Shown in pieces: positions 2,535-20,139 of a stretch of 32,029 bases of DNA (positions are counted from its first letter, which is position 1; the number at the start of each line of letters is the position of its first letter). The notes under the pieces are model-generated. The model did not search any database. It was not told the DNA's origin and saw nothing but the letters and a program-made list of their open reading frames with translations. The DNA comes from a virus. The translations under genes and the position numbers were made by a program. The stretch covers positions 1 to 32,029 of IMG/VR virus record IMGVR_UViG_3300033148_001870. The stretch is one strand, 5' to 3'.

Positions 2535-2700
2535 GTGCAACCATGATATACTTACTTATCAACTAGATAGCGAGGTAAATCATGAAAAAGGACGCTGAAT
2601 ACTACAGAAAGTATCGTGCAGCTAAGAAAGTGCAACCTGGAAGTGCAACCATACCAAAAAGTGCAACCAATGACGTGCAACCTGCAACCAAGGCGCAACC
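2535..2700 (+). repeat. Cluster of GTGCAACC direct repeats
   Basis: Five exact copies start at 2535, 2630, 2643, 2661 and 2675; two variants follow (CTGCAACC at 2682 and GCGCAACC at 2693). The first is outside any gene; the rest lie in the N-terminal part of the next gene. Because spacings are not multiples of three, copies are read in two frames, as VQP or SAT. A protein repeat would not do this, so the DNA sequence itself appears to be kept. Position between the terminase genes suggests a packaging (pac/cos) binding region. Confidence 0.75.
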
Positions 2701-2995
2701 ATCTGACGGCTTAGCCCGGACTGGTCATGGTAGCTTGGAAGTTTCAGCTAAGGAACCAGATTACACATGGCTGGATATCTCACCCAAATTGTTCGATGGT
2801 GTTGGTCGAGGTACGCCGATTAAGATTGAGAACAGAGAGGATAGATGTGTCCTGATCTCAAAAGGCTGGGTAACTATCGAAGGTGGACAGGATTTGACCC
2901 AAGGTGTTGTGTCTGAGGAAGCTTGGAAGGCCCGTCTAGATTATACCTGCAAGCACGGGAGACCAGGCTGGAGTTGCAAGCCATGTCTGCATTAA
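2582..2995 (+). CDS. Hypothetical protein carrying the repeat cluster, Cys/His C-terminus
   Basis: A 137-residue protein. The N-terminus (KKDAEYYRKYRAAKK) is a basic helix like that of many small phage DNA-associated proteins. Residues about 17-43 are a low-complexity linker encoded by the GTGCAACC repeats. The C-terminus has a possible metal site: C-K-H at about 123-125, then CKPCLH ending the protein. GAGGT precedes the ATG. It lies between the two terminase genes. Function is unknown; a packaging accessory role is only inferred from place and from the repeats inside it. Confidence 0.65.
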   Translation: MKKDAEYYRKYRAAKKVQPGSATIPKSATNDVQPATKAQPSDGLARTGHGSLEVSAKEPDYTWLDISPKLFDGVGRGTPIKIENREDRCVLISKGWVTIEGGQDLTQGVVSEEAWKARLDYTCKHGRPGWSCKPCLH

Positions 2996-3000
2996 TTCAG

Positions 3001-3114
3001 AATATACATATATAGTGATGGGGGGGGGCGAGAGTGATTTGCATCGAGAGATTGATTCCGACCTCCCCATATATATATCAAATATCAAGTAACCCCACAA
3101 TATATATGTATATT
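3001..3114. repeat. Perfect 14-bp inverted repeat enclosing a run of nine G
   Basis: AATATACATATATA at 3001-3014 is the exact reverse complement of TATATATGTATATT at 3101-3114, with 86 bases between. Inside lie nine consecutive G (3020-3028) and a CCTCCCC stretch (3062-3068) that could pair with them. The right arm ends 11 bases before the large terminase ATG, which has no visible ribosome binding site, so RNA folding could control terminase translation. A role in packaging or cleavage is also possible. Confidence 0.55.
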
Positions 3115-3125
3115 ATATTACAATA

Positions 3126-4691
3126 ATGCCTAATCTTGATGAGTATCTAACTGCGCTAGGGGCTTTATCCGAAGCCGATAAAAAGGCAATCCTGAATCAG
3201 ACTAAGGACGATATTTGGATTCCGAACCCCGGCCCTCAGACTCAAGCCTATTTTTCCAAAGCTGATATTCTACTTTACGGAGGGCAAGGTGGAGGAGGGA
3301 AAAGCGACCTTCTTGCTGGGCTGGCTCTTACGCAACATAAGCGCTCTCTTTTATTGAGGTATCAATATACAGACCTTGGAGCAATGATTGAGAGGACGGT
3401 AGATATTGTCGGATCGAGGAAAGGTTTAAATTCACAACCCCCTGCGCAGCTAAAACACAAGAAAGGAATAATTGATTTCGGGGCCGCCTCTAGTATGGAA
3501 AAGGCTCAGACATGGCAGGGGAACCCTCATGACCTAATTGGAGTCGATGAGGGATGTCAGTTTCAAGAGGACGTTGTACGGTTTCTTTTAGGTTGGAACC
3601 GTGCGGCTGATGAGACGTTGGATTCAAATTCTACTCAGCGTGTTCGTACAATCATAGCCTCGAACCCTCCGTTAGCTTCTGAGGGTGAATGGATAATCGG
3701 TATGTTCCGTCCTTGGTTAGACCCTACTTATTCTAACCCCGCTAAGGATGGTGAGTTGAGATGGTATATTATCGACCCCGACGGTAAGGATATCGAGGTT
3801 GACGATGAAGATGATGTCCGTGAATTCGACGGGAAGAAGTATCTCCCGAGATCAAGAACCTTTATTTCAGCGTCTTTATCGGATAATCCATTTTTAATAG
3901 ATACTGGGTATCAGTCTACTCTCGACGCCCTTCCTGAGCCGATGCGCTCCGCTATCCGTGATGGTAACTTCATGGCGGCCCGCGAGGATGACGAATGGCA
4001 GGTGATCCCGACAAACTGGGTTCTGCATGCAAATGAGCGATGGAAGGCCGGGAAGGGTGAAAATGCAATGACAGCCCTTGGTTTGGACATAGCTAGAGGG
4101 GGACGTGATCAGACCGTCCTCTCGCCTCGTTACGGACTCTGGTTTGACCATTTGATATGTGTCCCTGGATCTCAAACCCCGGACGGGCCTTCTGTTGTTG
4201 GCTTGGTCGTCCAGACCTTAAGAGACGGGGCCTGCATAAACCTTGATGCTATTGGGGTTGGATCTAGCGTTCAAGACCACATCAAAGCAGCCGGTTTAGA
4301 TCATGTCCCTATAAATTCAGCATCCAAATCGACTCGGAATACGATAGATGGTAATTTTGGTTTTTTAAACAAGAGATCTGAAATGTGGTGGGGATTGAGA
4401 GAGGCGCTTGACCCTGACTATGGAATTGAAATTTCTCTGCCCCCAGACCCTGCTCTACAAGCCGATCTAACTACGCCAAGATATGAAGTCAGGCCTGGGG
4501 AGCTTCCGAAGATTTGCGTTGAGAGTAAAAAAGACATCAAAAAACGGCTTGGCCGCTCAACGGATAAAGGAGATTCTGTCGTATACGCATGGTCTGCGGG
4601 GGAAGTTGAGAGAATGAGAGATCGCAAAAAGAGAAGAGCCAATGCCCCAACCCGAACCAATAACAAATACAGACCTCATCGAGCTTTCTAA
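3126..4691 (+). CDS. terL: Terminase large subunit
   Basis: ATP-driven packaging motor and nuclease, 521 residues, a normal length. The Walker A is GGQGGGGKS (residues 52-60) and Walker B with catalytic glutamate is LIGVDE (to 142). A coupling motif resembling TIIASNPP follows near 178. The C-terminal RNase H-like nuclease shows the expected acidic residues: D321 in ALGLDIARGG, D374 in INLDAIG and D483 in KGDSVVYAW. All key residues are present, so it should be active. No ribosome binding site is visible before the ATG; an inverted repeat ends just upstream. The last 50 bases overlap the next gene in another frame. Confidence 0.93.
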   Translation: MPNLDEYLTALGALSEADKKAILNQTKDDIWIPNPGPQTQAYFSKADILLYGGQGGGGKSDLLAGLALTQHKRSLLLRYQYTDLGAMIERTVDIVGSRKGLNSQPPAQLKHKKGIIDFGAASSMEKAQTWQGNPHDLIGVDEGCQFQEDVVRFLLGWNRAADETLDSNSTQRVRTIIASNPPLASEGEWIIGMFRPWLDPTYSNPAKDGELRWYIIDPDGKDIEVDDEDDVREFDGKKYLPRSRTFISASLSDNPFLIDTGYQSTLDALPEPMRSAIRDGNFMAAREDDEWQVIPTNWVLHANERWKAGKGENAMTALGLDIARGGRDQTVLSPRYGLWFDHLICVPGSQTPDGPSVVGLVVQTLRDGACINLDAIGVGSSVQDHIKAAGLDHVPINSASKSTRNTIDGNFGFLNKRSEMWWGLREALDPDYGIEISLPPDPALQADLTTPRYEVRPGELPKICVESKKDIKKRLGRSTDKGDSVVYAWSAGEVERMRDRKKRRANAPTRTNNKYRPHRAF

Positions 4692-4851
4692 AGAAGAGGA
4701 GAAAAATGGGTGGACAAAAGAGACGTTAACAAAATATCTGAATGAAAGAAATGCTATGCAATCTCTGAAAATTGACATCCATAACCCCCAAAGAAGAAAA
4801 AAACCAACCTTTCAAAATCATTCTTACAGCCCTCACAGGTGGAGACGATGA
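4642..4851 (+). CDS. Hypothetical small protein (69 aa)
   Basis: Overlaps the end of the large terminase by 50 bases in a different frame. The product starts MPQPEPITNTDLIELSKEEE, is highly charged, and contains GWTKETLTKYLNER followed by a basic tail ending HSYSPHRWRR. The composition looks like a true protein rather than a shadow, and the next gene begins at its stop (ATGA). Not recognised. Confidence 0.6.
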   Translation: MPQPEPITNTDLIELSKEEEKNGWTKETLTKYLNERNAMQSLKIDIHNPQRRKKPTFQNHSYSPHRWRR

Positions 4852-5129
4852 ACCAAGAAGACAGGCTTAATAGATTAGTTAGAAGAGTTAAATTAGAAAA
4901 AGAAATGGCATCGAGAGAGTGCCGCGGATGTTCCTATGAAGAAGATATAAATAATAACAAGGGTTTTGGTGTATGCACGGATGACGCTAATATTTGTCCG
5001 ATTTGCGAAAGAGTCGGAATTAGCGGACCAGTTTTGCATACATGCAAAACTACATGGATGCACCCGATATGCTCTAGTTGTAATGAAGACATAACTGAGC
5101 TTGAAAAGGTGAAAATATACGATGAATAA
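4848..5129 (+). CDS. Cysteine-rich zinc-binding protein (93 aa)
   Basis: I choose ATG 4848 (MNQEDRLNRLVRR) because AGGTGG sits five bases before it; a GTG at 4839 is in frame but worse placed. After a basic helix come CRGC (about 22-25), C44, CPIC (about 51-54), then C-x-T-x-W-x-H-x-x-CSSC. This is enough for two zinc sites in ribbon or treble-clef form. Such proteins are common beside terminase genes, but the exact role is unknown. Overlaps both neighbours by a few bases, so it belongs to the same message. Confidence 0.65.
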   Translation: MNQEDRLNRLVRRVKLEKEMASRECRGCSYEEDINNNKGFGVCTDDANICPICERVGISGPVLHTCKTTWMHPICSSCNEDITELEKVKIYDE

Positions 5130-5274
5130 TTTGAAATTGGTGACACCAAAACCTATAACCAGCGGGTATTCGATTAGCATCGAAGAACAACACTGGATAC
5201 AGTTTGTGTTCTCACCTCAAAAAACATATCGAATACGTTTTACAAAAGAATTAAAAAGATTTTGGTCTAAATGA
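5122..5274 (+). CDS. Small basic protein (50 aa)
   Basis: Starts MNNLKLVTPKPITSGYS; rich in K, R and aromatic residues and probably beta-rich. AAGGTGA lies upstream at good spacing, and the gene overlaps both neighbours (eight bases upstream, ATGA downstream). Not recognised, but the perfect packing supports it. Confidence 0.6.
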   Translation: MNNLKLVTPKPITSGYSISIEEQHWIQFVFSPQKTYRIRFTKELKRFWSK

Positions 5275-11674: not shown

Positions 11675-11700
11675 AGGGGGCTTTTTGCCCCCTTTGTCTT
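11675..11700 (+). terminator. Rho-independent terminator after the capsid operon
   Basis: Stem AGGGGGC (11675-11681), loop of five T, complementary GCCCCCT (11687-11693), then a T-rich tail TTGTCTT. It ends the capsid unit and marks the left border of the sugar cassette, whose first start codon overlaps the tail. Confidence 0.85.
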
Positions 11701-12184
11701 GACAGGAACGTGCATTGTTGCTGGCAGCGCGAGTTGTTTGCATGAAGATCTTGGAAAAGCCGGTGATTTCCCGGTTATAGCAGTCAATGGCGCGTCAAGA
11801 GAAATTAAAGCATTCGCGCTTTATTCACAACACCCAGAAAAATTCTTAAGCGCAAGATGGATTCATTGGCAAAAAAAGTTTCATAAAGACTTTACTGTTA
11901 ATAGTTCCATTTATCATGAGTGTGTAGATCATGTATGGGATATTAAAAACGGAGGCAGCTCCGCTTGGGGGGCGCGTAAAATGGCATCTTTGATGGGGTT
12001 TGATAAAGTCATCCTTTGTGGCTGCCCAATGAAGCCTGGGCCTTATGTCGGTGGTCATAATATGGGTGGTTTTATGCATAAAGAGGATGTGGTTGAAGTT
12101 TTACTAAACTATATCAAGAATGATACGAAGTGGCATAAAGGCTGCATCAGCATGAGTGGGGCTACCAGAGACGTTCTATGCTGA
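11699..12184 (+). CDS. MptE/DUF115-like or sialyltransferase-like Rossmann protein
   Basis: 161 residues. The N-terminus CIVAGSASCLHEDLGKA ... VIAVNGA has the nucleotide-binding look of DUF115/MptE-like proteins and of some phage sialyltransferase-like enzymes; later come SAWGARKMASLMGFDKVILCGCPM and a GYVGGHN-like loop. It probably handles a nucleotide-linked sugar. The TTG start lies inside the terminator tail with no ribosome binding site, and no better start exists without losing the first strand, so the gene may be poorly expressed or its 5' end may have been cut by the insertion. Overlaps the next gene by seven bases. Confidence 0.5.
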   Translation: MTGTCIVAGSASCLHEDLGKAGDFPVIAVNGASREIKAFALYSQHPEKFLSARWIHWQKKFHKDFTVNSSIYHECVDHVWDIKNGGSSAWGARKMASLMGFDKVILCGCPMKPGPYVGGHNMGGFMHKEDVVEVLLNYIKNDTKWHKGCISMSGATRDVLC

Positions 12185-12702
12185 CAGTTGCTTGTGTTTT
12201 ATCTCCCGGCCCAACTTACAACCAATCCCACGTTCACAGATTAAGACAACAGCTTATAGGCAGAATAAACCAGCCTTTTGAGTTTGTTTGTTTAGATGAT
12301 TCGCCTTACCCCGGCTGGTGGGCAAAAATAGATTTATTTAAACCCGGACGATTTACCGGACGAGTCTTGTATTTTGATCTCGATGTTACGATTATCTCAA
12401 ATCTGGACGAAGTGGCGGAATGCCCTTCTTTTACGGCGGTAAGAGACTACTTAAATAAAAGTCTAATTAATTCAAGCGTGATGGTGTGGGATGCGGGTAC
12501 ATTAGATCATGTTTATAAAAAGTTCAGCCTTGATATGGCAGACAAGTTCCCCGGCGATCAGGAATATATAAATTCAGTGAGCATCCCTTCCAAATTCCCT
12601 AAAAAATGGTTTCCGTCTTATAAGCATGATTGCAAGGATGAAATCCCTGAAGGGGCTAAAGCTATTATTTTTCATGGAAAACCTAAGCCTTGGGATCTCT
12701 GA
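12178..12702 (+). CDS. GT8-like glycosyltransferase
   Basis: 174 residues. The key piece is GRVLYFDLDVTIISNLDEV, with the DxD metal- and nucleotide-sugar-binding motif at D67-L-D69, typical of family 8-like GT-A enzymes. An acceptor-side stretch with PGDQEYIN (about 122-129) and a C-terminal IIFHGKPKPWDL (matching the usual HF-G-x-KPW end) strengthen this. It should transfer a sugar from a nucleotide donor. No membrane segment. Starts at ATG overlapping the previous gene; stop shares bases with the next ATG. Confidence 0.75.
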   Translation: MLTVACVLSPGPTYNQSHVHRLRQQLIGRINQPFEFVCLDDSPYPGWWAKIDLFKPGRFTGRVLYFDLDVTIISNLDEVAECPSFTAVRDYLNKSLINSSVMVWDAGTLDHVYKKFSLDMADKFPGDQEYINSVSIPSKFPKKWFPSYKHDCKDEIPEGAKAIIFHGKPKPWDL

Positions 12703-14048
12703 TGGATTTAGTATTAATTAATCCCGGAGACCAGGAAAAAATATACCAGCATTTAAGCGGTGGGTTAACCGCCAAAGAGCAGCCTCTTTGGTGCCGGTTG
12801 ATTGCTGGGTATATTCGAGACAACGGCTATAGCGTTCAGATCATTGACGCTGACGCTGAAGACTTGACCGCGAAAGAAGTCGCTGCAAGGGTAAATCAGA
12901 TAAACCCTCGTCTTGTAGGTATGATCGTTTACGGTCATCAGCCCTCGGCCTCAACGCAGCAAATGGAGTCGGCAGGCGAGATATGTGATCTTATTGACTT
13001 GCCTATTGTTATTGCCGGAGGGCATGTCTCAGCCTTACCAAAAAGAACGCTACGAGAAGAATCTGTTGGATGTGTTGCGGTAGGCGAAGGCGCTATAACA
13101 ATCAAAGAGCTACTTGAAGGCAAGCCTATGTGTGAAGTCTATGGGCTTGTCTGGGCAATAAGCAATCCATGTATACCTGTCACAAATCTACCTTCGCCTT
13201 TACTTGATCTAGATCAGCTATCGGGTAACACATGGGATTTACTCCCAATGGACAAATACCGCGCACATAACTGGCAGGGACAAAGACAACCCTATGCTTC
13301 GATTTACACAAGTCTTGGATGCCCTTATCAGTGTTCGTTTTGTTGTATTAATGCCCCTTTTGGGGGAAGTGGATACAGAACTCGAAAGCCTGAAGATGTG
13401 ATAGCTGAAATTAAAATGCTTCACGATACTTACGGGGTAAAGACATTCAAAATCATAGATGAGATGTTCGTTTTAAAGCCATCTCATTACATACCGATTT
13501 GCGAAGGACTGGCTGAACTAAACCTAGATCTAAATATCTGGGCATACGCAAGAATTGATACCGTTAAACCTGAAACATTAAATCTTTTACGCAAAGCTGG
13601 CATACAATGGTTGGCGCTAGGTATCGAATCCGGCTCTGAATATGTCAGGGATGGCGCAGACAAAACATTGTCAGAAAAAGATATTTATACCATTGTCAGA
13701 GAAATCCAGAAGGCCGATATTAAAGTCCTGGGAAACTTTATTTTTGGCCTGCCCGACGATACAATGGATTCCATGTGTGAAACGCTTGATCTAGCCATCA
13801 AATTAGAGTGCGATTTTGCGAACTTCTATTCTTGTCAGGCGTATCCGGGGTCGAAGCTTTTTAATGAAGCCAACCCTGACGATTTACCTGATTCATGGTC
13901 TGGTTATTCTCAACATTCGGCAAACTGTAAACCCTTACCCACTAAAACCTTAACCTCAAAAGAAGTGCTACAGTTTAGAGATTATGCTCATTCTACTTAT
14001 TTTGCAGATATCCCGGCTTTATCCGCGCCTTTGAAGAGAAATGGATAA
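12702..14048 (+). CDS. B12-binding-domain radical SAM protein
   Basis: 448 residues. The first 200 form a B12-binding-type Rossmann domain (LINPGDQE at the start, AGGHVSALPKRTL in the GG loop region), although the cobalt-ligating DxHxxG is not seen. The radical SAM core has C207-x3-C211-x2-C214 (GCPYQCSFCC) for the 4Fe-4S cluster, followed by FKIIDEMF, an ALGIESGSE loop and FIFGLPDDT. Members methylate unactivated carbons or rearrange sugars and other small molecules. Within a sugar cassette, C-methylation or deoxygenation of the sugar is a fair guess. I start at ATG 12702 because a TTG four codons earlier adds nothing. Confidence 0.8.
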   Translation: MDLVLINPGDQEKIYQHLSGGLTAKEQPLWCRLIAGYIRDNGYSVQIIDADAEDLTAKEVAARVNQINPRLVGMIVYGHQPSASTQQMESAGEICDLIDLPIVIAGGHVSALPKRTLREESVGCVAVGEGAITIKELLEGKPMCEVYGLVWAISNPCIPVTNLPSPLLDLDQLSGNTWDLLPMDKYRAHNWQGQRQPYASIYTSLGCPYQCSFCCINAPFGGSGYRTRKPEDVIAEIKMLHDTYGVKTFKIIDEMFVLKPSHYIPICEGLAELNLDLNIWAYARIDTVKPETLNLLRKAGIQWLALGIESGSEYVRDGADKTLSEKDIYTIVREIQKADIKVLGNFIFGLPDDTMDSMCETLDLAIKLECDFANFYSCQAYPGSKLFNEANPDDLPDSWSGYSQHSANCKPLPTKTLTSKEVLQFRDYAHSTYFADIPALSAPLKRNG

Positions 14049-14622
14049 GCAGGAATTAATCGACTTCGAGGAAGGGATTGCCGCTTCGTTTAATAATGGA
14101 GAAATCCCCTACCCAGTCCATTTTTCAGACGGTAATGAAGATCAGTTAATCGAGATATTCAAAGAAATTAAATCGGATGACTGGGCTTTTGGATCATGGA
14201 GGATGCACTATCAAGCTTTATTAAAAGGGGTTTCAAGTGAAGCCTTGAAAGAAGCCATATTTAGTGGCGAATCAATGGCTCTACGCTTCCCTAAAGAGCG
14301 TGTATACGGCTCTGCTATCGTAGGAGGCACGATCCCAATCGCATTAGGGGTAGCGCTAGGTATCAAGCGAGAGGGCGGCTCAGAGCGCGTCTGGTGCTTT
14401 CTTGGGGATATGACAGCAGAGACAGGCATATTCCATGAGGCTAAAAAATATGCAGAAAACTTTAACCTACCAATTAACTGGGTTATTGAAGATAATGGTA
14501 TATCAGTATGTACTAATACTAAAGAAGCATGGGGTGGCGATCTGAGTCTAACCGGAGTCAAGCGGTTTAAGTATCAATCTCGCTGGCCGCATTGTGGTAG
14601 CGGAGTAAGAGTCAATTTCTAG
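14041..14622 (+). CDS. TPP-dependent enzyme, alpha (PP-domain) subunit
   Basis: 193 residues, resembling the alpha subunit of 2-oxo acid dehydrogenase E1 or the PP half of transketolase. The thiamine-diphosphate motif is G122-D123 (LGDMTAETG) to N152 (EDNGIS), the classical GD-x(25-30)-N. The AFGSWRMHYQALLKGV and GSAIVGGTIPIALGVALG stretches match E1 alpha. It is much shorter than normal E1 alpha (about 320-400). The C-terminus YQSRWPHCGSG is the usual end of small PP-type subunits, so it looks complete. Partner is encoded next. In a sugar operon it could transfer a two-carbon unit. Confidence 0.75.
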   Translation: MDKQELIDFEEGIAASFNNGEIPYPVHFSDGNEDQLIEIFKEIKSDDWAFGSWRMHYQALLKGVSSEALKEAIFSGESMALRFPKERVYGSAIVGGTIPIALGVALGIKREGGSERVWCFLGDMTAETGIFHEAKKYAENFNLPINWVIEDNGISVCTNTKEAWGGDLSLTGVKRFKYQSRWPHCGSGVRVNF

Positions 14623-14647
14623 TTATAAACAAGCGCTATCAGAGGCC

Positions 14648-15121
14648 ATGCAGGAATTGGCCGTCGATCCACGCACAGTTTTCTTGGGACAAGGATGCCG
14701 CGACAAAGGCACATTCATGTCAATGACGCTCGAAAATGTACCGCTTGAAAAACGTATCGAGATGCCGGTTGCAGAAGAAATGCAGATGGGGATCTCAATT
14801 GGCATGGCGATGACTGGATTGGTTCCGATTACTATTTACCCACGATTTAATTTTATTTTATGCGCCATGAGCCAGCTTGTGAATCATGTGGAGGTAATGC
14901 AGCCTCATGTTATAGTTAGAGTTGGGGTAGGATCTGAGGAACCTTTATATCCAGGCCCTCAGCACGTTGGTAACTTTAGTAATGCCTTTAGGGAAATGAT
15001 GCCGAATACAAAAATTATTGAATTAGAGAAAGCTGAACAAATTATACCAGCGTATAAAGGCGCGATTGAATACCAAGGCCCGACCATTCTTGTGGAAATA
15101 GCGGATTTATATGAAATTTAA
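14648..15121 (+). CDS. TPP-dependent enzyme, beta (Pyr-domain) subunit, minimal
   Basis: Pyrimidine-binding domain of transketolase/E1 beta: ELAVDPRTVFLGQGC, then RIEMPVAEEMQMGISIGMAMTG (containing the glutamate that activates thiamine), RFNFILCAMSQLVNHV and a GPQHVGNFSNAF loop. There is no transketolase C-terminal domain, so it is about half of a usual E1 beta. The ATG at 14648 falls inside the first conserved helix: the frame is open 11 residues upstream and reads ISSYKQALSEA, exactly how E1 beta proteins begin, from an ATT at 14615 with GGAG before it. The true start may therefore be AUU. Together alpha and beta form a bare catalytic core. Confidence 0.75.
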   Translation: MQELAVDPRTVFLGQGCRDKGTFMSMTLENVPLEKRIEMPVAEEMQMGISIGMAMTGLVPITIYPRFNFILCAMSQLVNHVEVMQPHVIVRVGVGSEEPLYPGPQHVGNFSNAFREMMPNTKIIELEKAEQIIPAYKGAIEYQGPTILVEIADLYEI

Positions 15122-15266
15122 TCCTAACTTATGGCTTATTAATCTTGGAATATGGATTTGTGGATTAGTTATTAATCTAATTCAACAAGAATGGACTGAT
15201 GCGTTATTATTCTTCGCGCTAAGTTATACAACTTTTATTTTGTGGCTAGAAGCACGAAGCAAATGA
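15111..15266 (+). CDS. Two-helix small membrane protein (51 aa)
   Basis: Two hydrophobic segments (about residues 8-23 and 31-45) separated by QQEWTD, starting MKFNPNLWLINLG and ending LEARSK. Overlaps the TPP beta gene by 11 bases and the dehydratase start as ATGA, so it lies exactly in the operon chain. Topology is a hairpin with both ends probably inside. It could anchor the sugar enzymes to the membrane or flip a lipid-linked product, but no motif supports a specific function. Confidence 0.6.
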   Translation: MKFNPNLWLINLGIWICGLVINLIQQEWTDALLFFALSYTTFILWLEARSK

Positions 15267-16351
15267 AAGTTAATTTACATGAGCCCTCCTTTGGCGAAGA
15301 AGAGATCAAAGCTGCCGTTGAGGTTTTGAGATCTACCAATGTAACTTCTGGTGACAAGGTAAGGGAGTTTGAATCAAAGTTCGGCCCTTATGCAGTTATG
15401 TGTAATTCGGGATCATCTGCTAACTTACTTGCCATCGCAACACTTTGTAACCCATTAAATCCTAAATTAAGCCCTGGCGATGAGGTTATTGTATCAGCGC
15501 TCTCTTGGTCAACGACAGTTTGGCCTTTGGTTCAACATGGGTTAGTGCCTGTCATCGTAGATATCGATCCAGAGACTTTAAATATCTCTCCCGGAGAAAT
15601 AGAAAAAGCAATTAGCCCAAAAACTAAGGCAATCATGCCGGTTCATGTTTATGGAAACCCCTGCGACATGGCGGCCATAAATAAATTTGGGCTTATCGTT
15701 ATATCTGATTGCTGTGAAGCATTAGGAATTGACGTAGGGCAGTCTGACTACAACACCTATAGTTTTTACTTCTCTCATCATATTACGACGTTAGAAGGCG
15801 GCATGGTGGTCGCGCGGTCTCAGGAAGACGCCGATCTGCTAAAAAGCATACGAGCACATGGCTGGACGCGAGAAATGAAAAATCCGCCCCATCACGACGG
15901 GATTGATGATCGATTCCTTTTTATAACAGCCGGATACAATTTAAGGGCTTCTGAAATTAATGCGGCTATTGGCCTTATTCAGTTAGGTAAACTGGATGGC
16001 TTTATTGAAAGCCGAAGAAACGCAGCCAGGATGTTAACCGAAATATTTGAAGGTTATGTAGGCATACAAAAAGACATGGGTTCCTCTTGGTTTGGATTTC
16101 CTATTATCACAGACGACGCCAAGGAGCTAAGAGCGCATTTTGAAAAGGACGGTATCGAAACAAGACCGTTAATCTGTGGAAATATTGCAAGACAGCCCGG
16201 AATGAAATTATACCCTCATCGTGTGGTTGGCGATTTACCAAACGCAGACGACGTTATGGATTATGGTTTTTCTATCGGGTGCCACCAAGACATCGGTGTG
16301 AATGAATGTGAATATATCGCCGCTTCATTTAAAAAGTTCAAGTATGCCTAA
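15263..16351 (+). CDS. PLP-dependent NDP-4-keto-sugar 3-dehydratase (ColD/RfbH-like)
   Basis: 362 residues of the DegT/DnrJ/EryC1 fold. In ordinary aminotransferases the PLP lysine sits in a K-x-I-T-x-x-E-G-G context; here it reads SFYFSHHITTLEGGMVV, so H172 takes the place of lysine. That change is the hallmark of ColD and RfbH, which use PMP to remove the 3-hydroxyl of a 4-keto-6-deoxy sugar. The ring-nitrogen aspartate is in VISDCCEALG. RfbH-type iron-sulphur cysteines are not obvious, which favours ColD. ATG 15263 overlaps the membrane peptide stop. A normal sugar aminotransferase is thus unlikely. Confidence 0.8.
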   Translation: MKVNLHEPSFGEEEIKAAVEVLRSTNVTSGDKVREFESKFGPYAVMCNSGSSANLLAIATLCNPLNPKLSPGDEVIVSALSWSTTVWPLVQHGLVPVIVDIDPETLNISPGEIEKAISPKTKAIMPVHVYGNPCDMAAINKFGLIVISDCCEALGIDVGQSDYNTYSFYFSHHITTLEGGMVVARSQEDADLLKSIRAHGWTREMKNPPHHDGIDDRFLFITAGYNLRASEINAAIGLIQLGKLDGFIESRRNAARMLTEIFEGYVGIQKDMGSSWFGFPIITDDAKELRAHFEKDGIETRPLICGNIARQPGMKLYPHRVVGDLPNADDVMDYGFSIGCHQDIGVNECEYIAASFKKFKYA

Positions 16352-17318
16352 TGCGTTAATAACGGGCTGCGCGGGCTTTGTGGGGAGTCATCTCGCGGAA
16401 TATCTGCTCGCTAATACCGATTGGAATATTTATGGGTTGATGCGATGGAGTGAACCACTTGATAACCTTGTAAATATAAAAGATGAAGTTATCTTACTAG
16501 AAGGCGACCTAACTGATTCTGGATCGCTTAATAAAGTCATCGAACAAAGCAAACCAGATTATATATTTCATCTTGCAGCTCAAAGTTACGTGCAAGCAAG
16601 TTTTGTTTATCCCGTAAAGACTTTACAGACTAATGTAATCGGAACCACGAATTTACTGGAGGCAATTAAAGATCTGGCCCCAGACGCCTGGATACATAAT
16701 TGCTCATCTAGTGAGGTCTACGGGAAAGTCGATAAAGATTATGGGGCAATAGACGAAGACTGCCCTTTCGCCCCCGCAAGCCCATATTCGATTTCTAAAA
16801 TAGCTCAGGACATGCTCGGTAGGTATTACTATGAGGCTTATGGGTTAAAAATCCTGACTACCAGAATGTTTACCCATACCGGCCCACGCAGAGGCGATGT
16901 ATTTTGTGAGTCTACCTTTGCAAAACAGGCTGCCATGATAGAGGTAGGTCTTTTAGAGCCGCCGATTAAGGTAGGGCACCTTGATTCAATCAGGACAATA
17001 GCAGACGTAAGAGACGCAGTAAGAGCTTATCACATGCTTTTGACGGTCAATCCAATACCGGGGGAGGCGTACAACATAGGCGGAAATCATACCTGCAAGG
17101 TTGGGGATATTCTTGCTGAGTTAAACAAAAACAACTATCCAGTAGAGAGCGATCCGGCAAGAATGAGGCCGTTAGACGCTAATTATCAAATACCTGATTG
17201 CTCCAAGTTTACCGGCCATACCGGATGGAAGCCTGCATTTTCTTTTGAAGAAACCATGAAAGATTTATTGGAATACTGGGAAGAACGAGTTAAATATAGT
17301 GTTGTGATACAACGATGA
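16344..17318 (+). CDS. NDP-sugar 4,6-dehydratase/epimerase of the SDR family
   Basis: 324 residues, extended SDR. The NAD(P) motif is T7-G-C-A-G-F-V-G14, the catalytic set includes SSSEVYG and Y148-x3-K152 (SPYSISK), and the later MFTHTGPRRGDVFCEST and VGHLDSIRTIADVRDAVRAY stretches are those of GDP-mannose 4,6-dehydratase and its relatives, including GDP-heptose dehydratase. It should create the 4-keto-6-deoxy intermediate that the neighbouring ColD/RfbH-like enzyme needs. The natural substrate nucleotide (GDP, CDP or other) cannot be read from sequence. The ATG at 16344 overlaps the upstream gene by eight bases. Confidence 0.8.
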   Translation: MPNALITGCAGFVGSHLAEYLLANTDWNIYGLMRWSEPLDNLVNIKDEVILLEGDLTDSGSLNKVIEQSKPDYIFHLAAQSYVQASFVYPVKTLQTNVIGTTNLLEAIKDLAPDAWIHNCSSSEVYGKVDKDYGAIDEDCPFAPASPYSISKIAQDMLGRYYYEAYGLKILTTRMFTHTGPRRGDVFCESTFAKQAAMIEVGLLEPPIKVGHLDSIRTIADVRDAVRAYHMLLTVNPIPGEAYNIGGNHTCKVGDILAELNKNNYPVESDPARMRPLDANYQIPDCSKFTGHTGWKPAFSFEETMKDLLEYWEERVKYSVVIQR

Positions 17319-17710
17319 TCCTCGTTTCTGGTGGATTTGACCCAGTACATACCGGGCATTTAGATTATCTTTTGGCAGCGGGTGTATACGGTAAAGTCAT
17401 TGTTGCCTTAAACTCCGACGAATGGCTTGTCAGGAAAAAGGGTTATTATTTTATGTGCTGGGATGATCGCAAACGCATCCTTGAAAGTATACGTTACGTT
17501 CATAAAGTAGTCGCAGTTAATGACTTAGATGGTACGGTATGCGCTGCCTTAAAATCAGCGGCTCCTCGTTACTTTGCTAATGGTGGTGACAGGGAAACCT
17601 CTAACCCAAAAGAACACGATATGTGTAAAAAATTAAATATTACTGAAATGTTTGGCGTTGGGGGCGGGAAAACTCGCTCATCAAGCGAACTGATAAAGGG
17701 GATTAAATGA
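17315..17710 (+). CDS. Cytidylyltransferase-type sugar nucleotidyltransferase (RfaE2/TagD-like)
   Basis: 131 residues. The N-terminal GGFDPVHTGHLDYL holds the HxGH motif (H12, H15) of the nucleotidyltransferase superfamily. A further ANGGDRETSN and GGGKTRSSSELI (equivalent to the ISSTxLR signature) support RfaE2/HldE-C or glycerol-phosphate cytidylyltransferase relatives. It should couple a sugar or polyol phosphate to a nucleotide. Beside a heptokinase-like gene, an activated heptose is a natural product. Starts in an ATGA overlap. Confidence 0.8.
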   Translation: MILVSGGFDPVHTGHLDYLLAAGVYGKVIVALNSDEWLVRKKGYYFMCWDDRKRILESIRYVHKVVAVNDLDGTVCAALKSAAPRYFANGGDRETSNPKEHDMCKKLNITEMFGVGGGKTRSSSELIKGIK

Positions 17711-18678
17711 TTATTGTTAAAACGCCGTATAGAATTTCATTTTTTGGAGGCGGGACGGACTACGAAGCGTGGTATTCAAAATTCGGCGGCAAAGTGCTTA
17801 CCTGTACAATAGATAAATATTGTTATGTTTGCTTAAGGTATATGCCAGCTTTTCTCGGATCAAAATACATTGTATTCTGGTCGAAAATGGAAAAGGTTAA
17901 TCATGTAAAAGATATTCAGCATAATGGTGTTAGAGGATGCCTTGAATACTTAGGAATTGATGATGGCATAGAAGTAAATCATGCTGGCGATCTTCCTGCC
18001 AGATCGGGGCTAGGATCATCATCATCATTTACGGTTGGCATGTTGCATGCGTTACATTTGCTGAAAGGCAATAAGCCAGATAAAGCTCTCTTGGCGCAGC
18101 AAGCCATCAAGGTTGAGCAAGAAGTCCTGAAGGAGACTGTCGGCATTCAAGATCAGATCCAGTGCGCGTGGGGAGGAATTAATCATATTAAGTTTGATAC
18201 AGATGGAGAATATAGCATAAGGCATTTATCTTTGGAGGAAGGAATAAAGCAAAAAACGCAAGACCATCTGATTATGTTTTTTACCGGCCTTCAAAGAACT
18301 GCATCTGATATCGCAACAGAGCAAGTCAGTAACGTAAATCGTAAGCAGGCTGAATTACACGCTATTGCAGATCTGGTCGATCCAGCAACAACCGCGCTTA
18401 AAAAAGGTGATATGAAAGAATTTGGAAGACTCCTCCATGAGTCATGGATGTTAAAGCGCACCTTATCAGACAAGATAACCACCCCTGAGCTTGATGATAT
18501 CTATGGAAAAGCGAGAAGTGTTGGCGCGTATGGCGGGAAGCTTCTCGGAGCAGGCGGAGGCGGATTTTTCTTATTTTGCATAGATCCGGGGAAAAGGCAG
18601 GAGCTAATAAATAAATTAGGTCTTTTGCACGTACCAGTAAGATTTGAGTTTGGTGGCAGTCAGATCGTTGAAATCTAA
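17707..18678 (+). CDS. hddA: GHMP kinase, D-glycero-D-manno-heptose 7-phosphate kinase-like
   Basis: 323 residues. The start TPYRISFFGGGTDYEAWY and TIDKYCYV are the HddA signature. The GHMP phosphate-binding loop is LPARSGLGSSSSFTVG (about 96-111) and the C-terminal motif is GAYGGKLLGAGGGGFF. In bacteria HddA phosphorylates heptose 7-phosphate at C-1 before guanylylation. No isomerase (GmhA) or phosphatase (GmhB) lies in the window, so these would come from the host or the substrate differs (fucose and other kinases share the fold). Overlaps the previous gene by four bases. Confidence 0.8.
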   Translation: MIIVKTPYRISFFGGGTDYEAWYSKFGGKVLTCTIDKYCYVCLRYMPAFLGSKYIVFWSKMEKVNHVKDIQHNGVRGCLEYLGIDDGIEVNHAGDLPARSGLGSSSSFTVGMLHALHLLKGNKPDKALLAQQAIKVEQEVLKETVGIQDQIQCAWGGINHIKFDTDGEYSIRHLSLEEGIKQKTQDHLIMFFTGLQRTASDIATEQVSNVNRKQAELHAIADLVDPATTALKKGDMKEFGRLLHESWMLKRTLSDKITTPELDDIYGKARSVGAYGGKLLGAGGGGFFLFCIDPGKRQELINKLGLLHVPVRFEFGGSQIVEI

Positions 18679-19546
18679 AATTCTTTTCCTGACAACCCCG
18701 ACAAATGATTGTAATAATCATGTAAGGGCCTTTCGATCATTTGCTCCAGCAGAGCATTTAATCATGAGGACAAAAGGTATTCGTGTAGACGGGCATATAG
18801 TAAAACAGGTTCGTGATGTAAACCCCGATGTAATTTTTTATATAAGTGCAAATCAAGGCCCATGCGCTTTAAAGTGGCGAACGCTCGTAGATTTAAAGAC
18901 AATCTCGAAAACAATCAATTTATGTTCAGATGCAATGGACAGACCCTGGCACGGCGTATTAGATTTATACAAAAAGCATTCATGTTTCGACCTTCAGGCA
19001 TCTATTGATGGATCGAGATATGAGGCGATGGATTTAGCTGCGCTTACTCCTGTTGACCCAACATATTACTCCAACGATGTTGACAAAGATATTAGGTGCG
19101 GCTTTTCTGGATCAGTGGGAACTTCAGGGCAACGGGCAATGATTATCAATTCTCTTGAATGGTTCGGTAATTTGACTATTAGACTAAGAACCTTGAAAAA
19201 GGGATATGAAGATCACGTTAATTTTTTAAAACGATGTAAAATGATTTTAAATACATCATGGACAGGCACAGGACACGCCCACCATATCAAAGGAAGAGTA
19301 TTAGAGGCAGGGTGGGCTAGGTGTGCATTGCTGGAATCACACAGCTCCCCGATTGGAGAGTGGTTTTCGGAAGACTGTTACTTCACATGGCGAAGCGCAA
19401 AAGAAGCCGCTGAGATTATCCATGACGCAAGCGATAAGGAAGTTGCTGAAAAGGCAAAAAGACTTGCTGAAGAAGTAAGAGAACGATTCACGCCAAAACA
19501 GATTTATGGAAAAATGTTAAGCCTTATCGGAGTTGAAGGGGAATAA
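18668..19546 (+). CDS. GT-B glycosyltransferase, CgeB-like
   Basis: About 292 residues, starting at TTG 18668 (LKSKILFLTTPTND) just before the kinase stop; a TTG eight codons upstream is an alternative and neither has a clear ribosome binding site. The second half has KGRVLEAGWARCALLES ... GEWFSEDCYFTWRSAKEAAEII, the donor-binding region of CgeB/GT4-type enzymes, and ends with RERFTPKQIYGKML. It should transfer a sugar from a nucleotide donor. No membrane segment; cytosolic. Confidence 0.7.
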   Translation: MKSKILFLTTPTNDCNNHVRAFRSFAPAEHLIMRTKGIRVDGHIVKQVRDVNPDVIFYISANQGPCALKWRTLVDLKTISKTINLCSDAMDRPWHGVLDLYKKHSCFDLQASIDGSRYEAMDLAALTPVDPTYYSNDVDKDIRCGFSGSVGTSGQRAMIINSLEWFGNLTIRLRTLKKGYEDHVNFLKRCKMILNTSWTGTGHAHHIKGRVLEAGWARCALLESHSSPIGEWFSEDCYFTWRSAKEAAEIIHDASDKEVAEKAKRLAEEVRERFTPKQIYGKMLSLIGVEGE

Positions 19547-19557
19547 AAATCTGGATA

Positions 19558-20139
19558 TTGCCCTCTAGAAGCAGACCGCACAATATAAAACGTTTAGTCC
19601 AAGCCTATTTACACACAAAAGCCTCAACGCCAGTATTATTGCGTCTTGATGAAGACGACCCTGTATTAGGGGGTTACGATGTTCCCGATACATGGGCTGT
19701 CGTTGTAGGGAAAAGACTTCCTTTATCTGAATACTATAATGAAATTCCACTTAATCTTGACTGGTATGGATTTATTGCAGACGATGTTGTGCCAGAGACT
19801 TTACGCTGGGATACACGCTTAATAGAGGCAGCCGGATCAGATGGTATGGCGGTTCCGTCTGGGGGGAATGGAACGCCTCATTTTGTGTTAGGCGGTGATT
19901 TAGTACGAGAAACAGGCTGGGTATGCTTACCGGGCCTGGACAGAATTTATATAGATACTGTCTGGGGGGGCATTGCCAAAAAAAGAAATGTATTAAGGTA
20001 TGTACCTGATGTTGTTTTAAGGCATCATCATTTTAGTAATGGCAAGGCGCTATTTGACAAGACCTATAAAAAGCCTAATAAGGCAAATGACAAGCTAATA
20101 TATGAAACATGGAGAAAAGACTATGATTATACACCCTGA
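19558..20139 (+). CDS. GT-A-like glycosyltransferase (phage/polysaccharide type)
   Basis: 193 residues from the first standard start, a TTG. Sequence features: PSRSRPHNIKRLVQAYL near the N-terminus, LRLDEDDP (acidic donor-site motif, about 29-36), YGFIADDVVPET (DD, acidic), and PGLDRIYIDTVWGGIA. The frame is open further up and reads IKIWI before LPSRSR, from an ATA at 19543 overlapping the stop of the upstream gene. That piece is the expected first beta strand, so the gene probably lost an ATG by one base change or starts at AUA. Function: sugar transfer, target unknown. Confidence 0.65.
   Translation: MPSRSRPHNIKRLVQAYLHTKASTPVLLRLDEDDPVLGGYDVPDTWAVVVGKRLPLSEYYNEIPLNLDWYGFIADDVVPETLRWDTRLIEAAGSDGMAVPSGGNGTPHFVLGGDLVRETGWVCLPGLDRIYIDTVWGGIAKKRNVLRYVPDVVLRHHHFSNGKALFDKTYKKPNKANDKLIYETWRKDYDYTP

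Follow-up and report, generated by a model that had tools for sequence, protein, structure and literature searches.

An eight-base word repeated between the terminase genes of an uncultured phage: a candidate binding array for the start of DNA packaging or replication

The stretch analysed here, called the window, comprises 32,029 bases of IMG/VR virus record IMGVR_UViG_3300033148_001870, a linear fragment. Between its genes for the small (TerS) and large (TerL) terminase lies a cluster of a short word, GTGCAACC, most of it written into the beginning of a small open reading frame, ORF137. The features of the region are as follows.

2048–2533, + strand: TerS, small terminase gene (Pfam PF16677 GP3_package, E 1.7e-21; PHROG 606 terminase small subunit, 2.5e-8)
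2535–2542, + strand: GTGCAACC copy 1, exact, after the TerS stop (2533) and before the ORF137 start
2582–2995, + strand: ORF137, the array carrier, made up of a basic N-terminus KKDAEYYRKYRAAKK, the array and a C-terminal domain that ends in CKHGRPGWSCKPCLH
2630–2637, + strand: GTGCAACC copy 2, exact, read V-Q-P in ORF137
2643–2650, + strand: GTGCAACC copy 3, exact, read S-A-T in ORF137
2661–2668, + strand: GTGCAACC copy 4, exact, read S-A-T in ORF137
2675–2682, + strand: GTGCAACC copy 5, exact, read V-Q-P in ORF137
2682–2689, + strand: near copy CTGCAACC, one mismatch, overlapping copy 5 by one base
2693–2700, + strand: near copy GCGCAACC, one mismatch to GTGCAACC
3126–4691, + strand: TerL, large terminase gene (PHROG 979, 8.2e-27)

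Four of the five exact copies thus lie inside ORF137, in two frames (VQP and SAT), and copy 1 lies outside it. With exact and near copies taken together, successive starts are 95, 13, 18, 14, 7 and 11 bases apart. A word search confirms the five exact and two near copies at 2535–2700, directly 3' of TerS, to which a sequence-only reading had first drawn attention. That reading had named many copies throughout the genome as one observation that would count against it; no exact copy occurs outside the array on either strand of the whole 32,029-base window, and so this objection falls away, all five copies being in the array.

A chance origin of the cluster is rejected by shuffling, by a survey of other words and by recoding. 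The five exact copies compare with 0.65 expected in the window, both strands counted, and none of 100 shuffles reached five. The densest 8-mer in 200 bases occurs five times in the window, as against at most three times in 200 dinucleotide shuffles (best cluster two in 156 of them and three in 44), and no other 8-mer in the window, strands pooled, has four or more copies per 200 bases. When residues 13–44 of ORF137 were held fixed and synonymous codons were resampled from the window's own usage, four copies of GTGCAACC appeared in none of 200,000 trials; the maximum was three, in 22 trials. The claim that protein selection fails to explain words read in two frames is therefore borne out. Because no shuffle matches the cluster and recoding never yields four copies, constraint at the level of DNA is very likely, and it is the simplest reading of the array.

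ORF137 itself matched no family in Pfam or PHROG, and no Pfam family reached the cut-off for its C-terminal domain. This domain (W-x-ARL...C-x-HG...GWSCKxCL, window 2745–2995) recurs upstream of TerL genes; its relatives are found in locus L001 (43%), where an HTH-like start is fused to it (4836–5225), and in L228, where it stands alone as a separate ORF (1237–1458). The N-terminal part has a relative inside an ORF of L077/L315, and a search with a two-row alignment of this module (A3) returned only L077, L314 and L315 and, weakly, the unrelated L316 and L317. Just 5' of TerL, at 3061–3101, a block CCTCCCCATATATATNTCNAAATATCAANTAACCC is near-identical in locus L123, and in both it is preceded by a G run; the remaining intergenic DNA differs. 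The block could be a regulatory or cleavage site. Farther downstream, at 11699–20139, genes resembling by eye sugar-nucleotide/glycosyl genes (aminotransferase, epimerase, cytidylyltransferase, kinase and radical SAM types) are set among structural genes.

The position of the array, directly after TerS and before TerL, was central to the sequence-only reading, and it recurs with GTGCAACC in the unrelated phages of L003, L007, L108 and L226. In L007 and L108 a short basic ORF that carries the words and starts MPLSKxRNxxRM sits between the two terminase genes: in L007, 32 bases separate the end of TerS from the array and 169 the array from the start of TerL, and the corresponding distances in L108 are 40 and 301. 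An MPLSK ORF also follows TerS in L003 and L226, where more genes or a longer gap precede TerL (in L003, further genes separate the ORF from TerL), and the L226 phage has a single copy of the word, by the terminase. In the L110/L032 family and in the Nu1-like L026, the array lies within the TerS gene itself. Retrieved by the peptide MPLSK[AE]RN, without use of the word, the MPLSK family comprises five distinct loci (seven with duplicates). In these five, VQP tripeptides are written GTG CAA CC, that is, as GTGCAACC, in 14 of 14 cases; the background joint codon frequency for this spelling is 0.116, and the codons for MPLSK itself have diverged within the family. This codon choice, together with the recoding of ORF137, leads us to reject a protein repeat as the cause of the array. 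The naive probability of the 14 identical spellings, 8e-14, ignores kinship and was set aside. Also set aside was a test for synonymous change in the TerS family that bears the array; it is circular, since the presence of the word itself served to mark the codons.

A scan of viral contigs for three copies of GTGCAACC with gaps of at most 20 returned at least 120 stretches. Among the matches listed, 48 are multi-frame and 39 of those are irregular, in 25 groups, which reduce to 20 families when groups of the same protein family are joined by hand. The neighbouring ORFs scanned against PHROG were a subset chosen by eye, and four of the 20 families (L042, L043, L062, L122) are assigned neither to terminase nor to replication genes. 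Of the terminase candidates scanned, ten of ten TerL and six of seven TerS were confirmed, the exception being the L030 TerS. Among the matches listed, eight of the 20 irregular families (L003, L007, L010, L020, L032/L110, L059, L090, L108) sit in a terminase gene that PHROG confirms or at most 2 kb away from one, seven of the eight being oriented as the terminase genes are. In eleven of the 20 (L017, L018, L020, L031, L045, L057, L059, L061, L066, L085, L090) the gene that contains the array, or one no more than 0.8 kb away, is confirmed by PHROG as a replication initiator, primase or helicase; three count as both.

Two control words were searched for. For the reversed word, CCAACGTG, there were 18 stretches, three of them multi-frame and none irregular. 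A second word of identical composition, GTCAAGCC, was found in 60 stretches, of which 18 were multi-frame and 11 irregular. The irregular ones form eight groups: the array is in replication-initiator genes in five groups and 0.3 kb from a weak initiator match in one, and the other two arrays lie 0.6 kb from TerL and 0.8 kb from TerS. Since GTCAAGCC appears in both settings, the idea that GTGCAACC is unique to this setting is rejected; this kind of array is general, and GTGCAACC is at most commoner than other words. A sample chosen blind to the word (122 TerS/TerL loci, 835 kb) held five uneven multi-frame arrays of an 8-mer in at least five copies, ACCAGCAA, ACGGATAT, GGTGGAGC, GGCGGAAG and GCACAAAG, several of which, judged by eye only, are in or beside replication-like genes. 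Locus L297 was left out because CCAATGGC, present there eight times and in two frames, forms two regular 12-base runs. Three of the five arrays, L278 (2322–2431, GCACAAAG, eight copies), L273 (2077–2220, GGCGGAAG, seven) and L265 (2335–2470, GGTGGAGC, five), are found at or after ATPase-like genes, 5' of TerL, in phages with related TerL, and are candidate origins. On the sequences surveyed, arrays of short words are a general feature of both the replication genes and the terminase regions of phages, and GTGCAACC is one common word rather than a unique code.

A denser GTGCAACC pattern, searched for in 84,980 cellular genomes, gave 33 stretches, 17 of which (L190, L200–L206 and others) come from a single genome, candidate division BRC1 bacterium HGW-BRC1-1. 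Read in detail, L190 from this bacterium is a regular 11-base tandem repeat, and many of the stretches from other genomes repeat regularly in tandem every 10 or 11 bases. Among the papers listed, none was recognised as describing the present array; those that contain GTGCAACC have it once each and, by title, look unrelated to a phage repeat.

A search of related phages for the word, which the sequence-only reading had proposed, went against it. None of 43 loci carrying a relative of the window TerS has a GTGCAACC array; none was found upstream of a related TerL in the 41 loci examined of 80, the upstream DNA being short in some; and none is present in the annotated phages with related TerL, BPP-1, AP1, Acinetobacter 4316 and Limnohabitans DC33. 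The nearest relative, L123 (TerL 86% and TerS 57% identical to those of the window), has a TerS–TerL gap of about 830 bases that contains neither ORF137 nor GTGCAACC, and other degenerate repeats are present. In the next relative, L228 (TerL 77%), TerS belongs to a different family and is directly followed by a small ORF starting MTNKRKKYMRKYMAAKRQNVN, which carries three copies of another word, AATGTTAA, at steps of 21 and 42; the relative of the ORF137 C-terminal domain comes after it as a separate ORF. In this single example, the place and style of the array may persist though the word and TerS change. Direct conservation of the array in relatives is thus rejected at the TerS-relative, TerL-relative and annotated-phage loci alike, and the description of the words as conserved at the DNA level holds among the copies within the window and fails between related phages.

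These comparisons also bear on what might read the words. The TerS genes beside GTGCAACC belong to PF16677 (the window), phrog_4102 (L003/L108/L110), PF03592 (L007), phrog_57 (L059/L026) and DUF5681 (L226). The TerS of L003 is 29% identical to that of L108, and the window TerS shows only short weak matches to those of L003, L108 and L007. The proposal that TerS is the reader finds no support here, as the word adjoins unrelated TerS families and is missing as an array from all 43 loci with TerS relatives; direct reading by TerS alone is doubtful because the word stays while the neighbouring TerS family changes. A more speculative idea, which we consider quite unlikely, is that a short ORF whose N-terminus is basic (MPLSKxRNRxRM..., KKDAEYYRKYRAAKK...) and whose codons spell a GTGCAACC array forms a movable module, inserted between TerS and TerL of unrelated phages, that would recruit one common reader whatever the TerS. 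In that case the reader would join TerS and TerL as a third component in the initiation of packaging.

Known phage systems offer partial parallels. The R sites of lambda cosB are recognised by gpNu1. Like cosB, the candidate array of the window consists of several short copies of one word near terminase genes, and Nu1-like TerS genes (L026 and L059) carry or neighbour GTGCAACC arrays; unlike the lambda case, the window TerS is of the PF16677 family. The genome ends lie outside the record. Iterons of the lambda O type occur in phage replication-initiator genes. The window array resembles them in that short words are repeated in the linker of a coding gene, and GTGCAACC itself is found in initiator genes, but ORF137 is not a recognised initiator and its array is in a terminase operon, with short, irregular steps where many initiator arrays have steps of 22–25.

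Among pac systems, that of SPP1 contains three groups of direct repeats where the TerS gene begins (PMC4737164), and the DNA-binding domain of SF6 TerS is reported to bind pac DNA with no preference for sequence and irrespective of the box repeats (PMC4737164). Repeats near TerS, therefore, need not be TerS sites. The P22 pac lies within the TerS gene, without measured specific binding, and for most pac systems the review describes specific binding to pac as weak or difficult to measure (PMC9611059). The window array shares with SPP1/SF6 and P22 pac (PMC4737164, PMC9611059) a site at TerS, overlap with coding sequence and several short direct repeats; it differs from SPP1 in that its words follow TerS and fall in the next ORF, whereas the SPP1 repeats span promoters and the TerS start.

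The cluster is probably a protein-binding site, a candidate for aiding the start of DNA packaging or replication. Between these, we tentatively favour packaging, at somewhat less than an even chance: the cluster may be an iteron-like binding array that forms part of a packaging start, in a region of the pac or cosB type. Its location at the terminase genes, between TerS and TerL, suits a pac, and the several copies of one short word near terminase genes suit a cosB. Selection on DNA would keep the array, which takes up the beginning of a small ORF of the terminase operon; a phage DNA-binding protein would load on the irregularly spaced words and bring the terminase holoenzyme to DNA near the TerS/TerL junction, and packaging of the concatemer would begin in the array region. 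The binder would be TerS, a different protein of the phage or one from the host, and the bound state would serve packaging. The earlier suggestion of a pac- or cosB-like array keeps its standing as a reasonable idea, with no support for TerS as the reader. Against a packaging start stand the nearest relatives, which are without the word, and the occurrence of GTGCAACC and control GTCAAGCC arrays in replication-initiator genes as well, so that an array alone does not indicate packaging.

It is possible, though on balance unlikely, that the array is instead a replication origin, made up of iterons of a phage initiator that have moved from the initiator gene to the terminase region. The eleven families in or near replication genes among the matches listed, three of them also near terminase genes, fit such an origin, as does the finding that most contigs searched whole hold the word mostly in one array. 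In addition, the N-terminus of ORF137 and its words closely resemble, in protein and DNA, a stretch of the L077/L315 ORF (KDAEYYREYRATK, then words), so that the array may be borrowed from a replication gene; that ORF matches a DnaD-like helicase loader weakly (E 0.0017), and it matches best a family whose function is unknown. However, no replication gene was recognised among nine window proteins scanned, in a record that is a fragment, and the array lies in an ORF without family, flanked by TerS and TerL, rather than in or beside an initiator gene. The word is also present in TerS genes and in short TerS–TerL ORFs of unrelated phages, and the L226 phage has six copies of another word, GGCGGACA, by an ATPase-like gene, which was not confirmed as coding for a replication protein, and its lone GTGCAACC copy at the terminase. 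These GGCGGACA copies (L310, 9279–9373) are in both orientations, directly before the putative ATPase-like gene, and are themselves a candidate origin.

A regulatory role is improbable. Operator sites for a phage or host regulator of the late operon that starts at TerS would explain why all copies are in the orientation of transcription and why copy 1 precedes ORF137, and basic or HTH-like small ORFs do occur at the equivalent place in L228 and L001; but the region has two promoter-like matches where shuffles lead one to expect 5.0, and most copies are within coding sequence, downstream of the operon start. Nor is it likely that the words have no function as DNA and reflect a disordered V-Q-P/S-A-T linker or a chance expansion of a repeat by slippage. 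Bacterial and viral DNA do contain regular tandem repeats of GTGCAACC, and linkers tolerate such expansions, but the use of two frames, the irregular steps (13, 18, 14, 7, 11), the copy outside ORF137, the failure of 200,000 synonymous recodings to produce four copies and the one codon choice for all 14 VQP tripeptides of the diverged MPLSK family argue otherwise. An RNA-level element, such as a translation or processing signal of the terminase mRNA, is very improbable even with every copy on the sense strand, for the folding of the region does not surpass that of shuffles (z −0.49), the window has no Rfam match, and the word occurs as palindromic pairs in several replication genes, which suits double-stranded DNA.

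If the cluster is indeed an array of the packaging or replication kind, its interest lies in how small terminases choose viral DNA, which is still unsettled. For uncultured phages, word arrays recognisable in the sequence of terminase junctions and initiator genes would provide testable candidates for packaging starts and origins, and they would show that the coding DNA of a terminase operon can also serve as an array of binding sites.
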